From positions 1 through 64,000 of the IMG/VR virus record IMGVR_UViG_3300038722_000002: a stretch of DNA of 64,000 bases. The stretch is one strand, 5' to 3'. The stretch is from a virus. Position numbers and translations under genes: made by a program. Shown here piece by piece: positions 772-63,532 of this stretch (position 1 is its first letter; every line of letters begins with the position of its first letter). The notes beneath the pieces were generated by a model. The model had not been told where the DNA came from. It did no database searches and saw only the letters and a program-made list of their open reading frames with translations.

Positions 772-800
772 TTGCTAACAGCATCGTAGATATGTATACT
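772..800 (+). promoter_or_regulatory. Candidate sigma70-type promoter
   Basis: TTGCTA at 772-777 and TATACT at 795-800 are separated by 17 bases. The -10 context (ATGTATACTAC) is nearly the same as that of the promoter at 4962-4989, which drives the paralogue of the gene downstream here (828). The promoter similarity between paralogues supports the call. Confidence 0.5.
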
Positions 801-827
801 ACCTCCAACTAACAACAGGAGAGAAGA

Positions 828-1745
828 ATGACAGTCAAACCATTTTACATTAGATCAGGAGTGTTGACGGACAATCAAATTAATGGAGTTTTAGATAAAG
901 CTGTAGCTTGTGGGGCTATGGCTTATGAATGTAAAGAAAGGGCTTCTTTACATGGGTACTCTGATGTGTATTCCTCCAACTATTTATACTTTGGGGTAGA
1001 TGATGACAACCATACATACATTACTAACAATATGAACATATACGGAGTAGGAGCAGTAGAGCTGACTATCGATCAGGTGGATGAACATCTAGGAATTACT
1101 ACACCTAAATCAAATACCACAAAAGAGTATGTCCGTGAACGTGTAATCACCACATTAAGGAAGTTCAGTTGCGAGAACTATGTTGGCGACACACTAGCTG
1201 AATATGGACTTGACAGTCTTGACGAAGTGGAGCTTTGCTTTGAATTAGAGGAGGAGTTTGGCACCGAAGTAACAGATGCTACGGCTACGGCTTTCACTAC
1301 AGTTACTCAGGTGGTGGATTACATCCTAAACCATGTGGATTTTAATTTAAAGTTTAATTTAAAGCAGAAGGAGGCACAGGTGGAACCAGAACAAGAGGAC
1401 ACTATTTTTAATAAAGAATATGATGTCGTAATAGAGCAGACGGGGGCCTCTACGCCTTCGCAGTATCGACGAAGTATTACTGTTCCAGAGACAGGTAATC
1501 GTGGTGTGCATCATACTGTGGACATTGAGGTGTTTGATGTTGACCATGCTTACGGGTTAGGGCCAACGGGTCATAATATCCTCAAAGCTCTATGTCGGGA
1601 GGGTAAGAAAGAGGGGAACGTAGAGGATTATGATTATAATAAAATTATGTTTAATTCCTTGCTAATATGGAAGAACAATGGTAAAATCACACCTAAGCGG
1701 TTCTGGGAGCTTGCTGTGGAACTTGGTGTGGCTAAGGAGATATAA
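828..1745 (+). CDS. Three-part protein with a central acyl-carrier-protein domain
   Basis: The ATG at 828 follows CAGGAGAGAAG. Residues 1-90 form a domain repeated almost intact in the protein at 5019 (both contain YLYFGVDD and YGVGAVELT). Residues 98-168 look like an acyl/peptidyl carrier protein: YGLDSLDEVEL carries the DSL motif, whose Ser130 would receive 4'-phosphopantetheine, followed by an acidic helix (FELEEEFG). Residues from about 215 form a third unknown domain (HTVDIEVFD, ITPKRFWELA). Carrier proteins hold acyl groups as thioesters; no partner synthase is visible here. The carrier call rests on the DSL motif and helix pattern; the outer domains are unknown. Confidence 0.75.
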   Translation: MTVKPFYIRSGVLTDNQINGVLDKAVACGAMAYECKERASLHGYSDVYSSNYLYFGVDDDNHTYITNNMNIYGVGAVELTIDQVDEHLGITTPKSNTTKEYVRERVITTLRKFSCENYVGDTLAEYGLDSLDEVELCFELEEEFGTEVTDATATAFTTVTQVVDYILNHVDFNLKFNLKQKEAQVEPEQEDTIFNKEYDVVIEQTGASTPSQYRRSITVPETGNRGVHHTVDIEVFDVDHAYGLGPTGHNILKALCREGKKEGNVEDYDYNKIMFNSLLIWKNNGKITPKRFWELAVELGVAKEI

Positions 1746-1747
1746 TA

Positions 1748-2035
1748 ATGGAAGTTATAATTATACCTGATAAATGGAAAGTGGTTGTTGACAATTACAA
1801 TCACTCTCTGTATAAATGGAATACTGAATACGTTAATAGGAAAAAAGAGGTTGTCCCTGCTAAATGGAAACCTGAATATATATACTTCCCAACACTACCT
1901 CAGTGTGTCCGTTACATCTTGAAACAGGAGATGTTACATGATACATACGATAGTTTAGAAGCTTGTCTATTAGCACAGGAAGAAAAACTACAAGGAATAT
2001 TACAGGAGTTTAAATGTCAACAGATTGGTTCTTGA
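1748..2035 (+). CDS. Hypothetical protein, DUF5405-like
   Basis: It starts two bases after the previous stop and shares 22 bases with the next gene, so the three genes are probably translated together. The protein begins MEVIIIPDKWKVVVDNYNHS and has a central aromatic stretch ending YFPTLPQCVRYIL. The layout (short beta-rich start, then a helix beginning at a leucine-rich QCVRYILKQ) resembles the small phage family DUF5405, of unknown role; this is a judgement by eye. Confidence 0.55.
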   Translation: MEVIIIPDKWKVVVDNYNHSLYKWNTEYVNRKKEVVPAKWKPEYIYFPTLPQCVRYILKQEMLHDTYDSLEACLLAQEEKLQGILQEFKCQQIGS

Positions 2036-2619
2036 AGAAGAGTAAATTTAATCGTTATGCTGAAGCGGTTGTACTGTTCAATGAAATTGCTCGTAAGGAG
2101 CCTCCCACACTCTCACAACAACGAGCGTTAGGGGTAGAGGAGTTCACTGAGACTTACAAGGCATGGGAGGAGAGGGATAAAGTTGAATACTTAGATGGAC
2201 TTATTGATTCATTTGTAGTGTCAAGTTACTTCCATTACATGCAATCGGGTAGTACAGATGTAGAGCAATTCAAAGGCGACCCTACTGTCTATATGGGGGA
2301 GGTGTTGGATAATGTCAAGTACAACTTCGACATGTGGAAACTACTGCACGTCTCTATGTTACTATTACAATCTATTGATGTAGATTATGAGGGAGCTATA
2401 CAAGAAGTGTTGTATAGTAATATGAGTAAGTTTACACTATACCACAGTAGTGACGAAGGTGCCTACGACAGGGAACGTGATTGGATTATGGAGAACACGG
2501 AATATGTAGGAGTTACATGGGAAGTCAATAAAGACTATGTTGTCTTTAAAGATGAGAACAATAAGGTGATGAAGCCTTCTTACTATGTAGCGCCTGTATT
2601 AGAACCATATATTAATTGA
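2014..2619 (+). CDS. MazG-like nucleotide pyrophosphohydrolase
   Basis: The protein (201 aa) has the all-alpha NTP pyrophosphohydrolase signature: VEEFTETYKAWE (Glu42, Glu43, Glu46) followed by EYLDGLIDSFVV (Asp61, Asp65), the acidic residues that hold Mg2+. The C-terminal FKDENNKVMKPSYYVAP is also typical of phage members, which hydrolyse (d)NTPs to NMPs and pyrophosphate. It overlaps the upstream gene by 22 bases and precedes thyX, fitting a role in dUTP/dNTP handling and dUMP supply. The exact substrate cannot be read from the sequence. Confidence 0.75.
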   Translation: MSTDWFLKKSKFNRYAEAVVLFNEIARKEPPTLSQQRALGVEEFTETYKAWEERDKVEYLDGLIDSFVVSSYFHYMQSGSTDVEQFKGDPTVYMGEVLDNVKYNFDMWKLLHVSMLLLQSIDVDYEGAIQEVLYSNMSKFTLYHSSDEGAYDRERDWIMENTEYVGVTWEVNKDYVVFKDENNKVMKPSYYVAPVLEPYIN

Positions 2620-2629
2620 GGAGAGAAGA

Positions 2630-3502
2630 ATGACAACACAACCAAGCGCTAAAGTTATTTGTGATAGTGTTAGCCCTAACGGTGACAGACTGATAACGAT
2701 GGAAATAGAACTACACAGGTTCATACTTCCTGAATGGAACACACATAGAAGTATCTCACGTAACTTCCAAAGTAGTCGTGCTATTCCTATTCTACGTCAG
2801 TTACAACAGATTATGGATGACCCTGCTCTCCCTGTGTACTGGGGTAAGAATCAGGCAGGTATGACCGCCAAGGAGGAGCTATCGTTAGAAGCTATTGAAG
2901 AGTGTAAAGATGACATTTTGATGCTTCGCGACATGGCTGTAGCTGTGGCTAAACGTCTTCACAAGCGAGGACTGCACAAGCAAACAGTGAATCGTTATGT
3001 AGAACCGTGGATGTGGACTAAAGGTGTTGTAACAGCCACCTGTGAAGCATGGCGAGGACTGTTAGACTTACGCAATCATCCAGACGCTCAACCAGAGTTC
3101 AAAGCCTTGGCTGTGGAGATCGAACGTAATATCCGTAACTCCAATCCCACACAACTCGAATGGGGTGAGTATCACATGCCTTATGTGAATAAGACAGTCG
3201 ATATGAGTGTGGTGAATCAGGTTAAGTTGTCCACCAGCTGTAACGCACAAGTATCTTATCGTGTGCTAGACGAGACGTTAGATAAGGCTATTAAGATTTA
3301 CGATATGCTCAACTTACCTGTGGCTGCAATATACGGAGAAGATCCTCCACATTTCAGCCCTACAGAGCATGTTGCATTGTGTTATGATGGTTTGTGGGTA
3401 GGTGATAGTGGTAATTTCCACTCAGATGATTGGTGGCAATATCGTAAAGCATTAGAGACAGGGCAAGAAGATTTATTTATTAAACTAGGAGAGGGGAAGT
3501 AA
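2630..3502 (+). CDS. thyX: Flavin-dependent thymidylate synthase
   Basis: ThyX makes dTMP from dUMP with methylene-tetrahydrofolate, FAD and NADPH. The signature RHR-x7-S is present as THRSISRNFQS (residues 38-48), with the first arginine replaced by threonine, followed by SRAIP. The length (290 aa) fits the longer phage members. The ATG at 2630 has a GAGGAGAGAAG site. It sits right after the pyrophosphohydrolase and shares its last base with the next gene's ATG, so these form one operon. The altered signature residue is worth noting; otherwise the fit is strong. Confidence 0.88.
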   Translation: MTTQPSAKVICDSVSPNGDRLITMEIELHRFILPEWNTHRSISRNFQSSRAIPILRQLQQIMDDPALPVYWGKNQAGMTAKEELSLEAIEECKDDILMLRDMAVAVAKRLHKRGLHKQTVNRYVEPWMWTKGVVTATCEAWRGLLDLRNHPDAQPEFKALAVEIERNIRNSNPTQLEWGEYHMPYVNKTVDMSVVNQVKLSTSCNAQVSYRVLDETLDKAIKIYDMLNLPVAAIYGEDPPHFSPTEHVALCYDGLWVGDSGNFHSDDWWQYRKALETGQEDLFIKLGEGK

Positions 3503-4479: not shown

Positions 4480-4965
4480 ATGGAATACGAAGAGAACTAC
4501 GACGAACTAACCACAGATGATTTACAAAACAACCTGTTTCTTGCTTTGCTTGATGCGGGATATACAGGAACACAAGCCGAGATGTTGGCTGAGAAGCGAT
4601 ACAGTGGTGCATACAGCACACAAGAAGCAGAGGCTAGCATTTACCCTATCCGTAAGCTAATCGCTCTCCATCGGCTACCTGAGCAGTTTCATGGGCTATC
4701 TGACAAACAGAAGGATAAGTTTCTATGGGAACTAGGATTTGACACTAAACTATATAAGTACCAAGTACGTTTAGATTGGATGCGCGACTCAGAGGATAGC
4801 CCTAAGCAACAATATGGTGAGTTCATCGTCTGTACTGAGAGGGTTGATAAAGGCTGGACTGTAGGTAATCCACATGCTAGTATAGAAGCACGTTATTTCT
4901 ATGACCAAGAGGAAATGCGGGACATAATCTCATGCCGAGGGAAGGCGGTGAGAAAAAAGGTATGA
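4480..4965 (+). CDS. Hypothetical protein, 161 aa
   Basis: The ATG at 4480 has a GGAG ribosome binding site (ATGGAGTATTA). The N-terminal part is acidic and helical (YDELTTDDLQNNLFLALLDA), the middle has FHGLSDKQKDKFLWELGFD, and the C-terminal end is basic (GKAVRKKV). No family is recognised. It lies alone after a terminator, and the promoter of the next gene overlaps its last codons. Confidence 0.55.
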   Translation: MEYEENYDELTTDDLQNNLFLALLDAGYTGTQAEMLAEKRYSGAYSTQEAEASIYPIRKLIALHRLPEQFHGLSDKQKDKFLWELGFDTKLYKYQVRLDWMRDSEDSPKQQYGEFIVCTERVDKGWTVGNPHASIEARYFYDQEEMRDIISCRGKAVRKKV

Positions 4966-4989
4966 CATTTGGTATTAAAGATGTATAAT
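4962..4989 (+). promoter_or_regulatory. Sigma70-type promoter
   Basis: ATGACA at 4962-4967 and a perfect TATAAT at 4984-4989 are 16 bases apart. The -35 box lies in the last codons of the gene ending at 4965, and the promoter drives the gene at 5019. Confidence 0.6.
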
Positions 4990-5018: not shown

Positions 5019-5423
5019 ATGACAGTTAAGCCATTTTATATTAAATCAGAAGGGTTGACGGACGACCGAATTAATGAAGTTTTAGATAAAGCTGTAGACT
5101 GTGGAGCTAGGGTTTATGAAAGTAAAGAAGGGGCTTCTCGGTATACGTACCCGCATACGCTCGTCGAGAGATACTTATACTTTGGAGTGGATGATGAGAA
5201 CGATACATATGTTTCTGACGAGATTGACATGTACGGAGTAGGAGCAGTAGAGTTGACTGTAGATCAAGTGGATGAACATTTACTAGGGAACACCCATGCA
5301 GTGCCCGTTGTAGACGACATTGATGAAACTCACGAGGCGTTGTGTGTTGCGATAGACCGTATCCTAACGACAGATATTACACCTAAGATCAAGACCATTT
5401 TAATCAAGAAGTTACTACAGTAG
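5019..5423 (+). CDS. Paralogue of the N-terminal domain of the ACP-domain protein
   Basis: The first 90 or so residues match the start of the protein at 828 closely (both begin MTVKPFYI and share YLYFGVDDxN and GVGAVELT), but the carrier domain and third domain are missing; about 45 unrelated residues follow. It has its own promoter and an AGGAGAGAATA ribosome binding site like that at 828. It probably arose by duplication and then loss or gain of the fused domains. Its function is unknown. Confidence 0.65.
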   Translation: MTVKPFYIKSEGLTDDRINEVLDKAVDCGARVYESKEGASRYTYPHTLVERYLYFGVDDENDTYVSDEIDMYGVGAVELTVDQVDEHLLGNTHAVPVVDDIDETHEALCVAIDRILTTDITPKIKTILIKKLLQ

Positions 5424-40583: not shown

Positions 40584-41193
40584 ATTAAATTAGTAGCAGA
40601 ATAGGAATTAGAGTAATACAGAAGGTGTGGTTGTAAGACTACACCTGTACAAAATACATCACAATATACATTCCACCTGAGTGTGTATTCTAATGTATTT
40701 ATACATAGAGGCGTTTCGGCAAGGTTTCCCTCGCGTGGTAGCAAAAGCAAAACCCGACATATTGGTATATATGGAGCTGTAATGGATGACAGCGTTGAAG
40801 TGTAGTATCAAGAGTATACAATAACAAATCCTAGCTCTGACGTCCTCTGTCAACTGGGTAGGTGGAAATGGAACAAGGCCCGATCACTAAACATACCGAA
40901 TACCCTAAGATAGTCGTAGGTATGTTTACTCACTAGGGTTAAGTAGTGGGAGAATGCGTGTACCAAGGGGCAGGTCACGATAACGCAGAACCGATGACGT
41001 TATAGAGTAAACTCTTTATTTGGAATAAGTAATAATGAAAGTGACCAGTTAGGTCATATTACTTATATTGTACTTTACTAGGTACAATGGTTATATCTTT
41101 CAAGCAGTTATATATTATTAGAATATAATTGTTAGGATAGACCACCGAATAGAGAGGGCCTAGTTGCATCTGAAACTTGAGAATGGAGAGAAT
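40584..41193 (+). other. Non-coding stretch with hairpins before an HNH gene
   Basis: About 600 bases hold no convincing gene. Inverted repeats include 9-bp AGGTGTGGT/ACTACACCT (near 40640) and ACATACC/GGTATGT (around 40895-40930), and an ATTGTAC/GTACAAT pair near 41070-41090. A motif AAGATAGTCG near 40910 resembles the group I intron S element (AAGATATAGTCC), but I cannot find the matching R element and P3/P8 pairings, so an intron is not shown. The HNH gene follows directly. A structured RNA or mobile-element leader is possible. Confidence 0.4.
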
Positions 41194-41997
41194 ATGGGTG
41201 ATTTACTACTGAAATTTAATGTACTAAAAGAGATAGAAGGGAGTGATGAAAACTCCTTCCAGCAGTTCGCTAATGATATGGCTTTGAAATACGGTATATT
41301 AGGAACTACTAATACAGTGATAGATTCGCTGTGGACTAAGAAGCGGCTGAACGTGAAAGACTACTTGCCTCCTAAGAAGAAGAAACGTAAGAAGCAGGAG
41401 AGACGTGGCTACCACTACAGTCCTAACGCAGACCTAGAGTGGTTATCCTTGAGACGTGATGTGATTAAGGTATTAGGAACTCGGTGTCTTTGCTGTAGAA
41501 AGAAACCAAAGAAGACTAAAGACCTACACGTTGACCACGTTCTACCAAGGAGTAGACATCCACACCTAACGTATGACATAATGAACCTTCAAGTGTTGTG
41601 TAAGACGTGTAACTACGATAAGTCAGATATACACGCAACGGATTACAGGACAGACGAACAACGAGAGAGGTTATTGATTATGAAGGGTGTTAGAGGTAAT
41701 TGTGTTGTGAGTGAGGATATGGTAGATGATGTGTATGATGTACTAGGGGATATCCCCACTGAATACCTACAGGAGCTACACAGCTTACTTGAGAAGACGA
41801 AGAACAGTAAAGTAATGCTAGAGGTAGAGAATGATAAACTATGCTCTGTAGTGTACCTGATAAGCTCTAAGGGCAGACATGTCGCCCACTGTAGTAAGAA
41901 TAAGATAGTTGTCCGTGAGTATCGCAACTGGAGCAACGACAACCGAGAGTTTAAGAATATAACCAAGGAGTTGTTGATTAAATGCAGGAAAGATTAG
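41194..41997 (+). CDS. HNH endonuclease
   Basis: The ATG at 41194 follows GGAGAG; a TTG ten codons earlier has no site. The 267-aa protein has a basic linker (KKKKRKKQERRG) and an HNH core at residues 98-144: CLCC, DLHVDHVLPRSRHPHLTYDI, NLQVLCKTCN. His, Asn and the cysteine pairs that bind zinc are present. It is a likely homing endonuclease beside a non-coding stretch, though restriction-like roles are possible. Confidence 0.75.
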   Translation: MGDLLLKFNVLKEIEGSDENSFQQFANDMALKYGILGTTNTVIDSLWTKKRLNVKDYLPPKKKKRKKQERRGYHYSPNADLEWLSLRRDVIKVLGTRCLCCRKKPKKTKDLHVDHVLPRSRHPHLTYDIMNLQVLCKTCNYDKSDIHATDYRTDEQRERLLIMKGVRGNCVVSEDMVDDVYDVLGDIPTEYLQELHSLLEKTKNSKVMLEVENDKLCSVVYLISSKGRHVAHCSKNKIVVREYRNWSNDNREFKNITKELLIKCRKD

Positions 41998-47572: not shown

Positions 47573-48328
47573 TTGGGAAAGCAAGATAAGCATTGTAATC
47601 AACGATCTAATAAACGTAAAGATAAACAGCGCAAAGGTGAACGTGAGATACGCGAGAAGTTTGTAGAGGAGAGGGTACATCGTGCGCCACCAATATTGGC
47701 GAAGACACAGAACCAACGTAAGTATATGCAGGTACTTCGTACAGAGAAGTTAATTGTATGTCGTGGAAGTGCGGGTGTGGGCAAGAGCTTTCTAAGTAGT
47801 GCTTTAGCAGGGGACGCCCTATTGCGCGGCGACATTAGTAAAGTGATTGTTTGCCGTCCCAATGTAGCTATGGGGGAGAGTATTGGGTATAGAAAGGGTT
47901 CTGACGAAGACAAATTATTTCCTTTTGTCCGCCCAATGCTAGATACGCTCAAGAAACGTATGGGTTCGGGTAGTTATGAAGTCGCTATAGCTAGTAAGCA
48001 GATCGAGATCCAAGCACTAGACGCCATACGAGGGATGTCTTTTGATGGTAACGTGGTAATACTGTGTGATGAGATGTCTAACTCAACACCTGCGGAAATC
48101 CGTAGTGTAGTAACTCGCCTCGGTGAGCAAGCCCAGATGGTCATTATGGGCGACCCCACACAGACAGATATACGAGGAGAGAATGGACTGGACTATATCT
48201 GTGGTCTAATAGAGAAATACGACATCCCCGATTCAGCTATTGTAGAGTTCACTTCTGCAGATATTGTACGTTCAGGTATTGCTAAGGCGTTTGTTACAGC
48301 CTTCGAGAAGGAGGGTGTTAATGGCTAA
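47573..48328 (+). CDS. phoH: PhoH-like ATPase
   Basis: The start is TTG at 47573 after AGGAGAAG. A basic N-terminal region (NQRSNKRKDKQRKG) precedes the ATPase domain: Walker A GSAGVGKS (residues 65-72), SKVIVCRPNVAMGESIGYRK, Walker B VVILCDE and GDPTQTD. PhoH family proteins are ATP-dependent, RNA-binding proteins common in lytic phages. The downstream HNH gene starts within its end. Confidence 0.9.
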   Translation: MGKQDKHCNQRSNKRKDKQRKGEREIREKFVEERVHRAPPILAKTQNQRKYMQVLRTEKLIVCRGSAGVGKSFLSSALAGDALLRGDISKVIVCRPNVAMGESIGYRKGSDEDKLFPFVRPMLDTLKKRMGSGSYEVAIASKQIEIQALDAIRGMSFDGNVVILCDEMSNSTPAEIRSVVTRLGEQAQMVIMGDPTQTDIRGENGLDYICGLIEKYDIPDSAIVEFTSADIVRSGIAKAFVTAFEKEGVNG

Positions 48329-49085
48329 GAAACTAGACATACGTTCTGGGGATGTATTTGGGGATTATACCGTAGTCACTGAAGTACCCAAAACCCAACA
48401 GAACCAGAGGAGGTTTCTACTTCGTTGTGTTTGCGGTACAGAGAAAGAATTGGATCTCCCCTCTTTTAAGTACAATAATAGTGGGTGTGGGTGCCGTAGC
48501 ACAGATAAGATGGTAGCGTCAAAACTGAAGAGGGAGGATTTTCATGGTATGACAGGAAGCCCCGAATACAGGTCTTGGGCACGAATCAAGAGTCGGTGCT
48601 TCAATCCTAATAGTGCTGATTTTCCTGACTACGGGGGCAGGGGTATCACTATGTCCCAAGAGTGGCGGGATAGTTTCCCCAAGTTCTACGAACACATCGG
48701 CCCCAAGCCTTCCGATGGTAAGAGATACAGTGTAGACAGGGTAGACAACACCAAAGGATATGTACCTGATAATGTCAGGTGGGCTACGGACGCACAGCAG
48801 GCACGAAACCAGAACGGGAGGTCGAAAGCAAACACTACAGGGGTTACAGGTGTTTACTGGGACACTAAAGTACACCCGACTGGCAGGGATTCTACTCGGT
48901 ACGCCGTAGCGCAATGGGTATCTCTGGAGGGAGTCCGTAAGAAGAAATGCTTCTCGGTCAAAAAACTCGGAGAAGAACTAGCCTTCTTAGCAGCCTGCGA
49001 ATGCCGAGATAAGCAAATGACCTTGCTAAACTTACAAGGGGCAGGTTATACTGACCAGCACCTTAACAATAGGAGTTATACATGA
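48321..49085 (+). CDS. HNH/AP2-type homing endonuclease
   Basis: The ATG at 48321 overlaps the phoH stop and follows GGAGG. The 254-aa protein has a zinc finger (RCVCGTEKELDLPSF, CGC, residues 35-58), an HNH core (RYSVDRVDNTKGYVPDNVRW, residues 135-155) and an AP2-like DNA-binding domain (TGVTGVYWD and on, about 172-225). This matches free-standing homing endonucleases. It sits at the 3' end of phoH without breaking it. Confidence 0.8.
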   Translation: MAKKLDIRSGDVFGDYTVVTEVPKTQQNQRRFLLRCVCGTEKELDLPSFKYNNSGCGCRSTDKMVASKLKREDFHGMTGSPEYRSWARIKSRCFNPNSADFPDYGGRGITMSQEWRDSFPKFYEHIGPKPSDGKRYSVDRVDNTKGYVPDNVRWATDAQQARNQNGRSKANTTGVTGVYWDTKVHPTGRDSTRYAVAQWVSLEGVRKKKCFSVKKLGEELAFLAACECRDKQMTLLNLQGAGYTDQHLNNRSYT

Positions 49086-51841: not shown

Positions 51842-52013
51842 CCTAATAGAAGTCAAAGGAAGGGGTTGTTATTGTCGTATATGTGACTACATTATCCCAA
51901 TAGGAACAGTAGCTCTTATGGTGGAAGGACGTAAAGAATGTTTGCGTGTATGTAAGGAGTGTGTTACTTTAGCGGCTATTGAAATTTCAAACAACGAGGA
52001 GACGGATGAATGA
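51834..52013 (+). CDS. Small zinc-ribbon protein, 59 aa
   Basis: A TTG at 51834, overlapping the ligase stop and with AGGTG upstream, opens the frame. The product has GCYCRICDYIIPIGTVALMV and RVCKECV: two Cys-x2-Cys pairs of a zinc ribbon. It is translationally coupled to the ligase and the next gene. Confidence 0.55.
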   Translation: MSNLIEVKGRGCYCRICDYIIPIGTVALMVEGRKECLRVCKECVTLAAIEISNNEETDE

Positions 52014-52567
52014 ATAAAACAAAACCACCCAAGGATAGAGAGTTTCTAGGATTAGTTAATCACAACAGTCCGTATTGGGATATATTCTTTTACGGCAGGA
52101 AGGAGGATGGTGTGCCTAAAGCTGAGTTTGTAGATAGGGGGGGTTATTCTCTATGCCCAAGCTTATCGGGTGGGAAGAGTTGCCTGTTATGGAGGATGTC
52201 TGAGGTGATTAAACTAATCATAGCAGGTGGTAGAGATTTCAATCGTGTCTTAACCCTCAAACGTGAAATGTTAAACTACGACACAACATCATTGGAAGTT
52301 GTCTGTGGTGGTGCCAAGGGAGCAGACACCTACGGTGAACGCTGGGCTAAGAAAAATAATGTCCCTATCAAGTACTTCCTTGCAGAATGGGATAAATATG
52401 ACAACGCTGCTGGGTATATCCGTAATCGACAGATGGCTGAATATGGAACACACTTACTAGCCTTCTGGGACGGAGAGAGTAGAGGAACTAAGAATATGAT
52501 TGACACAGCTACAGAATTAGGTTTAAATGTGCAAATCGTAATGTATAACAACAGGAGTTTAGTATGA
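52010..52567 (+). CDS. SLOG-domain (DUF2493, YspA-like) protein with N-terminal extension
   Basis: Residues from about 63 on match the YspA-type SLOG/DUF2493 family: VIKLIIAGGRDFNRVLTLKR, VVCGGAKGADTYGERWAKK, RNRQMAEYGTHLLAFWDGE and GTKNMIDTA. SLOG proteins bind nucleotide-derived ligands and may sense them or act as hydrolases. The first 60 residues (PPKDREFLGLVNHNSPYWDI and on) look like a separate small domain. An internal ATG before VIKLIIAGG has GGAGG too close to be a good site. Confidence 0.75.
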   Translation: MNKTKPPKDREFLGLVNHNSPYWDIFFYGRKEDGVPKAEFVDRGGYSLCPSLSGGKSCLLWRMSEVIKLIIAGGRDFNRVLTLKREMLNYDTTSLEVVCGGAKGADTYGERWAKKNNVPIKYFLAEWDKYDNAAGYIRNRQMAEYGTHLLAFWDGESRGTKNMIDTATELGLNVQIVMYNNRSLV

Positions 52568-60460: not shown

Positions 60461-60958
60461 CTATGGAGCTTCAGCAGGGAACGTATCAATTGTATTTAAT
60501 AACCACTCTTTATGTTGCTCCCATAACTCAGCAGCTTTTTTCCCACCCCTCCATAAGACTCGTTCGAGAGTAATAGTTCTCCAATCTTCTATAGAATGAT
60601 TCGCACAACCTATTTGGAGATGTGTGTGAGTGTAGGTTATATTATATTCTGATGTTATAGATAGGTTTTTGACTTGACGTAAATTACCTACTGTTCCCTC
60701 TAAATCACACTTACTCAAGTTACACTCGCTCAAGTTAGACCCTCTCAAGTCAGACTTACTTAAATCAGACTCACTTAAATCAGACTTACTGAAGTTACAC
60801 CCTATCAAGGTAGACTCACTCAAGTTAGACTCGCTCAAATCAAGCTCACTCAAATCGTACCCGATTAAAAATAACAGCTCTCCTTCGGGATCACCTTCTA
60901 AGTATAGCTTGTGTAATTCTAGTTTCTCTTGTAACTCTTGTTTAGTGATGGTTTTCAT
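60461..60958 (-). CDS. Pentapeptide-repeat protein
   Basis: From about residue 34 of this 165-aa protein the sequence has about 11 A(D/N)LSx-type repeats (YDLSELDLSESNLSES, then CNFSKSDLSESDLSKSDLRG). These fold into a square beta-helix that in Qnr and MfpA mimics DNA and protects or blocks gyrase. The last 55 residues form a separate region (HSIEDWRTITLERVLWRGGK). The ATG at 60958 is chosen; a TTG at 61054 has no site. The phage target is unknown. Confidence 0.75.
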   Translation of the reverse strand: MKTITKQELQEKLELHKLYLEGDPEGELLFLIGYDLSELDLSESNLSESTLIGCNFSKSDLSESDLSKSDLRGSNLSECNLSKCDLEGTVGNLRQVKNLSITSEYNITYTHTHLQIGCANHSIEDWRTITLERVLWRGGKKAAELWEQHKEWLLNTIDTFPAEAP

Positions 60959-61041
60959 TATCTTAACTATAACCCCTTGTTGTGTGTTATTGTATTGAGT
61001 GGTTCCATTATAAGGATATGAAGATAAAGTACAACCTTTAA

Positions 61042-61230
61042 TCAACGAATACAATGTTCGTGGTGTATGTCTATTAACCTATCAGCGGCTTGACCTCTGG
61101 GCCATACATTATACACCTTTCTGGACAAGTTTTTATTCTGCACTTGTACATTTAACCACCAACGACACTGTTGGTTATACTTCCGCTGTATTCCTAGTGC
61201 GTTTTCTCCACACCTTTCAGCCCACTCCAT
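61042..61230 (-). CDS. Hypothetical protein, 62 aa
   Basis: The ATG follows TAGGAGATA, a strong ribosome binding site. The protein (MEWAERCGENALGIQRKYNQ, QCRWWLNVQVQNKNLSRKVY) is small and basic with several tryptophans. No family is recognised. Confidence 0.55.
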   Translation of the reverse strand: MEWAERCGENALGIQRKYNQQCRWWLNVQVQNKNLSRKVYNVWPRGQAADRLIDIHHEHCIR

Positions 61231-61354: not shown

Positions 61355-63532
61355 CTAGATTTGTGAAGCAATCTTAGCTCGAATGTCTCGGAGGGTGGTT
61401 TTATTGTACAACTTACCATCCTTGAACACTGTACGAAGCAAACCTTGCCCTTCTTGCTCAGGTGTCTGCTCCTGATATAGAGTAATAACACCTTCCTCAT
61501 TATGGTCTACACGCAACAAACCTTTAGCTGACTTCTTACCTTGATCAGTCTTAGGGTCTTTACCGAAGTCAATCTGCTCACCTTTGTCGTTCCATGCACA
61601 GGTAGCCTTGATAGCTGACCCGTGAGTGTCACGGGTGACATATTGGTAACTGTAGGAGCCGATGCCAAGCACTACGCTAGGAGCAAACCCCTTAGCCATC
61701 AAACGGGTGTGGATCTCTTTTTGACGCTCTAGGGTGATACTGTCACCGTAGATAGCACCGATATGGGAGTCTAGTAGTTTGTATCCCTCTGAGGTGGTTG
61801 TGCCACCGAAGATGTCCCAGAGGGATTCTACTAGACCTTTGGCTTCTGTAGAGCTAACTTCCTCGTACTCGTTATCATACATAGTATCATAGGTGCCCCC
61901 TGAAGACACGTAGTAGAATTTATCATCAGCTTTGTTCAGGTACAGCCTTTTTCTGCCTCGTATTGTTAAGGTCTGTATGTTATCCACTGTCTCATACTCC
62001 AATCCACACAGCACGCTAACAGGGTCTCCAGAATCTGGACGAATGACCGTGGTACCGTCACGAGCCATGATATCATCTTTCAATAGTGGTAAACCTTCCT
62101 CAACAAACTTCCAGAAGTCATAGCTGTCTGATACATGAGAAACAATCCCACTTGGAACCTCTGTGAACAACTTCTCCCGTACAAAAGCAACCTCAGCATC
62201 AAACTTACTGATGCCCCGCTCCTTCTCTAGTACCGCAATGTAGCTTGTTGCGATTGCATGTTCTGTAGCTGGTACACTGCAACCTACCAACTCAGTCTCG
62301 CAGTCAGCACCGTAGTATATCTCAGCCAAATCAATAGCTGGAACAGTATCAGTGCCAGCAAAACCTGCTGCTAGATGACCAAAACCTGACATTGCAGCTG
62401 CTTGTGGGCCAAAACAACCTCGCATGGAGAAATCGTGACACATAAACGGGACAGTTGCCTCGTCTAAGCCTGTCTTACGGAAGCTCTCTACAGTTTGCTT
62501 CATGTAAGCTGTAGCTGTAGTGGCTGAAGTCTGCATAGGCCATACATACGTGCTGATGATAGTCTCTAGGAAGCCTACGAGCCAAGGGTATCCGTCTACT
62601 GTGTTGGTTACAGTAAAGCACGGTACACCGTAGGGGCAAAAAGTACCCTCTTCCATAGACTTAATCTCAATTGGAAGATAACCTAAGTCATGTAGCTCCT
62701 CAAAATGTTTCACATCGAAGTCACTGCCGAAATAGTTATCTAATCGGCGCTTCAAGCTACGGACAGCACCTTCCTTACTCAGGTTAAAGAATGTATTATT
62801 CCACTCATTTACCATGTAGTGCATCATCATATACTGCAAACCTACGTGGACAACACCGAAGTCCTCTGGGATGTAGGATAGTCGTCCACTCCTAGCAGTG
62901 TAATTTTCATATAGGCGCACAATATTGGTGTGCAGGAACTTCTTGTGTGCAAATTTGTAACCGTCTGCTTTAGTGATAGCTGACATACTATTCTCCTCAT
63001 TGGTTTTATCGTATATTCTATTAATATGCCTCAGGAAACCTCCCTTGGTCATATCTCTCTTCATGTGGTTACAGGCACCACAGCAAGGTAGACAATTACT
63101 ATAGGTATACCCTAAGTTGTTGTCAACCCGATCTACTCCGTTCATCTCTACTTTGAAAATACCCCTAGCTTTCGGTTGGCTTCCACAGTAGTTACAAGAA
63201 TCTGTTATTAGTGAGATGAACTCTTCATCAGTTAATTGGTACTCGTACCCCCTACTTTTAGCGGCTTGCTTATAGCTGTTGATCTCTTTATTGTACGCTC
63301 GGAGATTTTTGGGTATTCTAGGTACACTCCTTGTGCACTTGTTGCAACACTTCTTAGGCCGCTGTCTCCGCCTGAGTTGTGAAGTAGTAATATAGCAGGT
63401 AACCCCACAACTACACAGGCACTTCCACTTTGGTGTACCACCAATTAACTCCCTGTCACTGATCACCTTTAGTTTACCAAACATCTTCCCTGTCAAGGCA
63501 TCATCCGCTAGGTGTGTTGACCCATTCTTCAT
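61355..63532 (-). CDS. HNH endonuclease fused in frame to nicotinamide phosphoribosyltransferase
   Basis: Residues 1-180 are a homing endonuclease: zinc finger (CLCSCGVTCYITTSQLRRRQ, CCNKC), then SCNYCGSQPKARG, GVDRVDNNLGYTYSNC and CCGACNHMKRD. Residues 183-725 are NAMPT: HDFSMRG (366-371; Asp), GTDTV, SVPATEH (419-425; catalytic His), RPDSGDP and IYGDSIT. NAMPT joins nicotinamide to PRPP, or in NARP1 systems to ADP-ribose pyrophosphate. An internal ATG at 62986 has GAGGAG 6 bases upstream, so free NAMPT (543 aa) can also be made. The start at 63532 overlaps the stop of the Prs-like gene. Confidence 0.88.
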   Translation of the reverse strand: MKNGSTHLADDALTGKMFGKLKVISDRELIGGTPKWKCLCSCGVTCYITTSQLRRRQRPKKCCNKCTRSVPRIPKNLRAYNKEINSYKQAAKSRGYEYQLTDEEFISLITDSCNYCGSQPKARGIFKVEMNGVDRVDNNLGYTYSNCLPCCGACNHMKRDMTKGGFLRHINRIYDKTNEENSMSAITKADGYKFAHKKFLHTNIVRLYENYTARSGRLSYIPEDFGVVHVGLQYMMMHYMVNEWNNTFFNLSKEGAVRSLKRRLDNYFGSDFDVKHFEELHDLGYLPIEIKSMEEGTFCPYGVPCFTVTNTVDGYPWLVGFLETIISTYVWPMQTSATTATAYMKQTVESFRKTGLDEATVPFMCHDFSMRGCFGPQAAAMSGFGHLAAGFAGTDTVPAIDLAEIYYGADCETELVGCSVPATEHAIATSYIAVLEKERGISKFDAEVAFVREKLFTEVPSGIVSHVSDSYDFWKFVEEGLPLLKDDIMARDGTTVIRPDSGDPVSVLCGLEYETVDNIQTLTIRGRKRLYLNKADDKFYYVSSGGTYDTMYDNEYEEVSSTEAKGLVESLWDIFGGTTTSEGYKLLDSHIGAIYGDSITLERQKEIHTRLMAKGFAPSVVLGIGSYSYQYVTRDTHGSAIKATCAWNDKGEQIDFGKDPKTDQGKKSAKGLLRVDHNEEGVITLYQEQTPEQEGQGLLRTVFKDGKLYNKTTLRDIRAKIASQI

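Follow-up and report, generated by a model that had tools for sequence, protein, structure and literature searches.

Why would a phage place an acyl carrier protein (ACP) domain in the interior of a larger protein, and encode that protein beside genes of enzymes that make DNA building blocks? This question is raised by a marine bacterial virus, of which we analysed a window of 64,000 nucleotides (positions 1 to 64,000 of IMG/VR record IMGVR_UViG_3300038722_000002). The full viral record spans 83.5 kb, has base 1 of the window as its first base and probably lacks part of the genome. Its host is likely a gammaproteobacterium; the terminase is related to that of Pseudoalteromonas phage H101 (51%), and the thymidylate synthase ThyX is related to those of Rheinheimera phages and Pseudoalteromonas phage HM1. 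By sequence, the protein in question is a phage-specific mosaic of 305 amino acids, in which an N-terminal phage module and a DUF3310-like segment flank the ACP domain (Table 1). The reading frame and the placement of Ser130 in the DSL motif of a carrier helix, both part of the original prediction, were confirmed by the list of open reading frames and by alignment.

Table 1 Features of the ACP-protein locus and its paralogue (window coordinates)
Feature	Position	Strand	Basis or remark
Promoter-like hexamers TTGCTA-17-TATACT, weak (9/12)	772..800	+	Placed like the near-consensus site upstream of the paralogue
Ribosome-binding site GGAGAG, good	818..823	+	Upstream of ATG 828
Tripartite protein, 305 aa: phage N-terminal module, ACP domain, DUF3310-like C terminus	828..1745	+	Open reading frame list, family searches, structure models
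N-terminal module, residues 1-92	828..1103	+	Common to paralogue and to Vibrio and Shewanella phage proteins; confidently folded
ACP (PP-binding) domain, residues ~97-172, four helices	1116..1343	+	Family searches, AcpP comparison, structure model
Ser130 codon, predicted 4'-phosphopantetheine attachment site in GLDSLDEVEL	1215..1217	+	
Linker region, residues 173-224	1344..1499	+	Low model confidence; no family match
Divergent DUF3310-like segment, residues ~232-273	1521..1646	+	hhalign versus shuffles; PF11753 below cut-off
Next gene in cluster, 95 aa	1748..2035	+	Start 2 bases past the ACP-protein stop
MazG-like nucleotide pyrophosphohydrolase	2014..2619	+	phrog_671, E 3e-21
ThyX thymidylate synthase	2630..3502	+	PF02511, E 6e-9; phrog_85, E 5e-53
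Near-consensus sigma-70-like site (11/12)	4962-4989	+	Directly upstream of paralogue 5019
Paralogue, 134 aa: N-terminal module and a different short C terminus, without ACP	5019..5423	+	

An ACP domain in the middle of the protein had been proposed from the DSL motif, and family searches agree with this assignment. The domain scores 34.7 bits with PF00550 (E 2e-8), well above the curated cut-off of 20.8, and is the single PF00550 match in the 83.5-kb record, and also matches phrog_5934, annotated ‘acyl carrier protein’ in PHROGs (E 3e-11), and solved ACPs in the PDB by sequence (E 5e-9). Several NCBIfam ACP models match as well, the best being TIGR00517 (E 3e-13), every one of them below its own cut-off. 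Failure of structure prediction to give the four-helix carrier fold would have counted against the original prediction, but this fold was indeed obtained. A model of residues 95–175, built from an input alignment with 33 viral ACPs, shows helices at 2–17, 36–50, 56–61 and 65–75 (model numbering) with a mean pLDDT of 81, and the fold was obtained even though the input alignment was partly wrong at helix I. The best PDB matches of this model are ACPs (TM about 0.70–0.75), including E. coli AcpP crosslinked to FabB (9mlw, TM 0.70/0.75) and mitochondrial complex I ACPs. In a first full-length model the ACP region was poor, because the alignment comprised N-terminal relatives only.

Ser130, at the D-S-L start of helix II, aligns with Ser36 of E. 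coli AcpP, and the DSLDxVEL motif is intact. Further residues of AcpP are kept (D35, S36, L37, D38, V40, E41, L42, L46, E47, E48, F50, E53, D56 and A59), and its acidic partner-contact residues are retained. As far as can be told from these comparisons, the domain is a genuine ACP that is competent for modification by host AcpS. Two positions are changed, with Phe138 in place of Met44 and Cys137 in place of Val43. In E. coli AcpP, M44I, M44K and V43E abolish SpoT binding, and M44I and V43E keep fatty-acid function (PMC3340395). Because both residues differ in the phage domain, binding of SpoT is doubtful, and mimicry of AcpP towards SpoT is disfavoured.

Both the ACP similarity and the recognition residues would suit a domain that serves fatty-acid or lipid synthesis as an ACP while the phage infects, the role put forward for free-standing phage ACPs, and phage ACPs have been discussed as metabolic genes (PMC11705849, PMC8224337). 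We regard such a role as distinctly unlikely here. The score against TIGR00517, the equivalog model for ACPs of fatty-acid synthesis, is 49.5 bits and lies below the equivalog cut-off of 70.45, and the domain is embedded in a larger protein. Moreover, the neighbours of known family are nucleotide genes and not fab genes, and no AMP-binding (adenylation) enzyme was found in the 83.5-kb record.

A search of the same 83.5 kb found no AcpS or other phosphopantetheinyl transferase (PPTase), so the protein would have to rely on host AcpS to reach its holo form, provided that no such gene lies in the missing part of the genome. Modification would then consume the host enzyme and CoA, and an abundant phage ACP domain could serve as a decoy that captures phosphopantetheine or acyl chains of the host, slowing or redirecting host lipid synthesis. 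The intact AcpS-recognition motif and the acidic helix II speak for this possibility. However, a decoy must be abundant and free of other domains, whereas the ACP here is flanked by two, and we consider sequestration unlikely.

The N-terminal domain was predicted to be common to a paralogue, and this proved correct: residues 1–88 are 64–65% identical to the paralogue at the amino acid level (E 1e-38). Their DNA is identical at 214 of 275 alignment columns (78%), and the same codon is used at 46 of the 57 residues common to the two, which together point to a recent duplication. The module is also N-terminal in otherwise unlike proteins of Shewanella phage 1/40 and Vibrio phages ValSw3-3 and P23, and weakly of RYC, and it occurs in six IMG/VR loci. 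No ACP was found in the other proteins of this phage and IMG/VR set that bear the module, and the module itself was not found in GTDB contigs. In the full-length model its pLDDT is about 68–92 by block, mostly above 85. A Foldseek search of BFVD with the module returned top matches of 211, 192 and 226 amino acids, lengths that fit ValSw3-3, P23 and 1/40, followed by small phage proteins of 81–98 amino acids (probability 0.99); a PDB fold search gave no convincing match. In ValSw3-3 and P23, the module gene lies near a gene annotated as NAD-asparagine ribosyltransferase (L004:1567-2637 and L005:1568-2638).

A recently duplicated module would also be compatible with a degenerate or neutral mosaic, in which a free-standing ACP gene was recently captured between two fragments and has little selected function. 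Domain mosaicism is common in phages (PMC10684548), and no full-length relative with the same architecture was found in the phages, IMG/VR or GTDB contigs searched. Against neutrality, the frame is open over all 305 codons, neither the modification motif nor the partner residues are disrupted, the ribosome-binding site is good and the genes are tightly packed. On balance, we doubt that the protein is a neutral by-product.

The C-terminal domain had been described as unknown. This holds for the linker, which has no detectable family, but not for the segment that follows it, which resembles DUF3310, the family to which a passage in PMC11797047 assigns the T7 gp1.7 nucleotide kinase. DUF3310 (PF11753) was the sole Pfam match of residues 173–305, at 12.8–13 bits against a cut-off of 24, and PF11753 had no other match in the record at E values up to 10. 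Residues 232–273 align without gaps over 42 columns to a profile of 62 viral DUF3310 sequences, with 36% identity to the first member of the profile. The hhalign score of 27.8 was reached by none of 400 shuffled sequences (mean 10.8, sd 2.3, maximum 20.1), the hmmsearch score of 11.1 bits was exceeded by 1 of 5,000 shuffles and a smaller profile gave P 0.0014, although these shuffle tests and the reading-frame comparison that follows are not fully independent, because DUF3310 was chosen after Pfam's top match had been seen. Among 171 other phage reading frames, the maximum hhalign score was 18.9 and none reached 27.8. Of the family signature, HY ... GN..KY..R, the segment keeps H, N249, K252 and R256, and both Tyr and the Gly are replaced. 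The segment is probably a divergent DUF3310 domain, and we term it DUF3310-like and not a member of the family. Two other candidate relatives were dropped, namely a GIY-YIG endonuclease tail for the last 30 residues (E 8 in a collection search) and a T4-like match to residues 164–252 (E 0.8).

The ACP gene is tightly packed with the MazG-like and ThyX genes. Independent context for the DUF3310-like segment comes from viral contigs with the closest ThyX genes, in which a true DUF3310 gene lies close to ThyX and MazG. Neither the ACP nor the N-terminal module was found near ThyX in 77 related viral loci, and profile searches found neither in phage H101. Promoter-like sites are no more numerous in the region than expected by chance. 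The gene packing and the DUF3310-like segment would be in keeping with a carrier whose Ser130-phosphopantetheine holds an acyl or aminoacyl group for transfer to nucleotides or DNA. We know of no system that transfers carrier-held groups in this way, and the failure to find an adenylation (AMP-binding) or PPTase enzyme in the 83.5 kb argues against it, leaving this a very improbable explanation.

Elsewhere in the window, a 725-amino-acid reading frame (61355-63532, minus strand) combines an HNH/endonuclease VII-like N terminus with a nicotinamide phosphoribosyltransferase, whereas phage H101 encodes an HNH homing endonuclease and the transferase as two adjacent genes. The window also encodes a pentapeptide-repeat protein (60461-61054, minus strand; PF00805, E 8e-27) and a YAcAr/SLOG-family protein (52010-52567, plus strand; PF10686, above cut-off). 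Two further plus-strand genes are probable homing endonucleases: an HNH endonuclease-like reading frame (41164-41997) and a protein whose AP2 domain scores just below cut-off (48264-49085).

The original prediction regarded the fusion as unusual, and it is indeed uncommon but not unique. Among the best 80 viral ACP loci in IMG/VR, about 95% are free-standing and about 4 are clearly fused, some of the long reading frames stemming from ambiguous upstream starts. Three of the IMG/VR proteins resemble the lysis inhibitor RIIB by PHROGs and carry the ACP at residues ~536-612 (L122:1309-3828), ~108-182 (L148:2677-4032) and ~399-471 (L168:1804-3504); in another locus, L133, the ACP is fused with an N-terminal phrog_1273 region. 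Vibrio phages P018-4 (L271:1492-2052) and vB_VibM_10AMN (L272:1492-2055) encode an ACP with an uncharacterised C-terminal region of ~100 amino acids, and gp58 of Pseudomonas phage pf16 (L274:1501-1992; 163 amino acids) has a shorter C-terminal extension. The RIIB protein of Vibrio phage EniLVp02 was rejected as an ACP fusion, as it matched via the ACP region of L148 yet is without an ACP. On these assignments, ACP fusions recur in phages. We found no paper on an ACP within an RIIB protein in the literature searched, and published phage ACPs are small proteins with roles that are unknown or proposed to be metabolic (PMC5463345, PMC10152775, PMC11705849, PMC8224337, PMC3220722).

Taken together, the architecture of the fusion, its gene neighbours and the repeated occurrence of ACPs in non-lipid phage proteins lead us to favour docking or tethering over lipid synthesis; the last of these, seen in RIIB-like and other proteins, agrees better with a tether than with a lipid pathway. 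We tentatively propose, as a reading that still falls short of probable, that the ACP domain is a docking module beside a nucleotide-metabolism domain and not a carrier for fatty-acid synthesis. The protein would be made together with the phage MazG- and ThyX-type genes during host takeover, and host AcpS would attach 4'-phosphopantetheine to Ser130. Helix II, in its holo or acylated form, could then bind host ACP-partner enzymes, which would bring the rest of the protein to these partners or compete with host AcpP, and the protein may have a role in nucleotide or lipid metabolism. We count in favour of docking the PF00550 score above cut-off, the AcpP-like four-helix model and the retained acidic contact residues, together with the lack of detectable AcpS/PPTase and AMP-binding enzymes in the record, the packing with MazG-like and ThyX genes, and a DUF3310-like segment in a region that retains a DUF3310 gene in relatives. 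Counting against it are the lack of a full-length relative in which conservation of Ser130 or of the fusion could be seen, the DUF3310 score below the Pfam cut-off with several signature residues missing, and the changes at Met44 and Val43.

The usual view of phage ACPs is that they are auxiliary fatty-acid genes of unknown effect. Finding the domain fused within other kinds of protein, one by nucleotide genes and three RIIB-like, offers a testable alternative, in which phages exploit host AcpS and the ACP interaction surface for recruitment. It is conceivable, if rather unlikely as a general rule, that phages repeatedly splice ACPs into unrelated takeover proteins (RIIB-like, DUF3310-like and others) as docking handles for the host ACP interaction network, the phosphopantetheinylated proteins steering host enzymes and not making lipids.

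How does the protein compare with known systems? With the free-standing phage ACPs of phrog_5934, such as those of Vibrio phage helene 12B3, Erythrobacter phage R6L, Prochlorococcus phages P-HM1 and P-HM2 and the Vi01-like PhiSH19, it has in common a phage-encoded PP-binding domain with a DS[L] motif that is presumably modified by host AcpS. Those proteins, however, are mostly single-domain and 72–110 amino acids long, whereas here the ACP is internal to 305 amino acids with two further regions. DUF3310 proteins share with it the 42-column gapless similarity and a comparable genomic neighbourhood near ThyX, but the segment scores below the Pfam cut-off and has other residues in place of the Tyr of HY and KY and the Gly of GN, and DUF3310 proteins (the T7 gp1.7 family and the ThyX-linked genes) are without an ACP. 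Like the proteins of P018-4 and vB_VibM_10AMN (186–187 amino acids) and pf16 gp58, it joins a phage ACP to an additional region, although in those proteins the ACP is N-terminal and the C-terminal regions are unrelated. Like it, the RIIB-like proteins are larger phage proteins, other than lipid enzymes, in which an ACP is embedded; there, the ACP stands before or after an RIIB region, whereas the flanking domains of the 305-amino-acid protein are different ones, with no RIIB family among its PHROGs matches.
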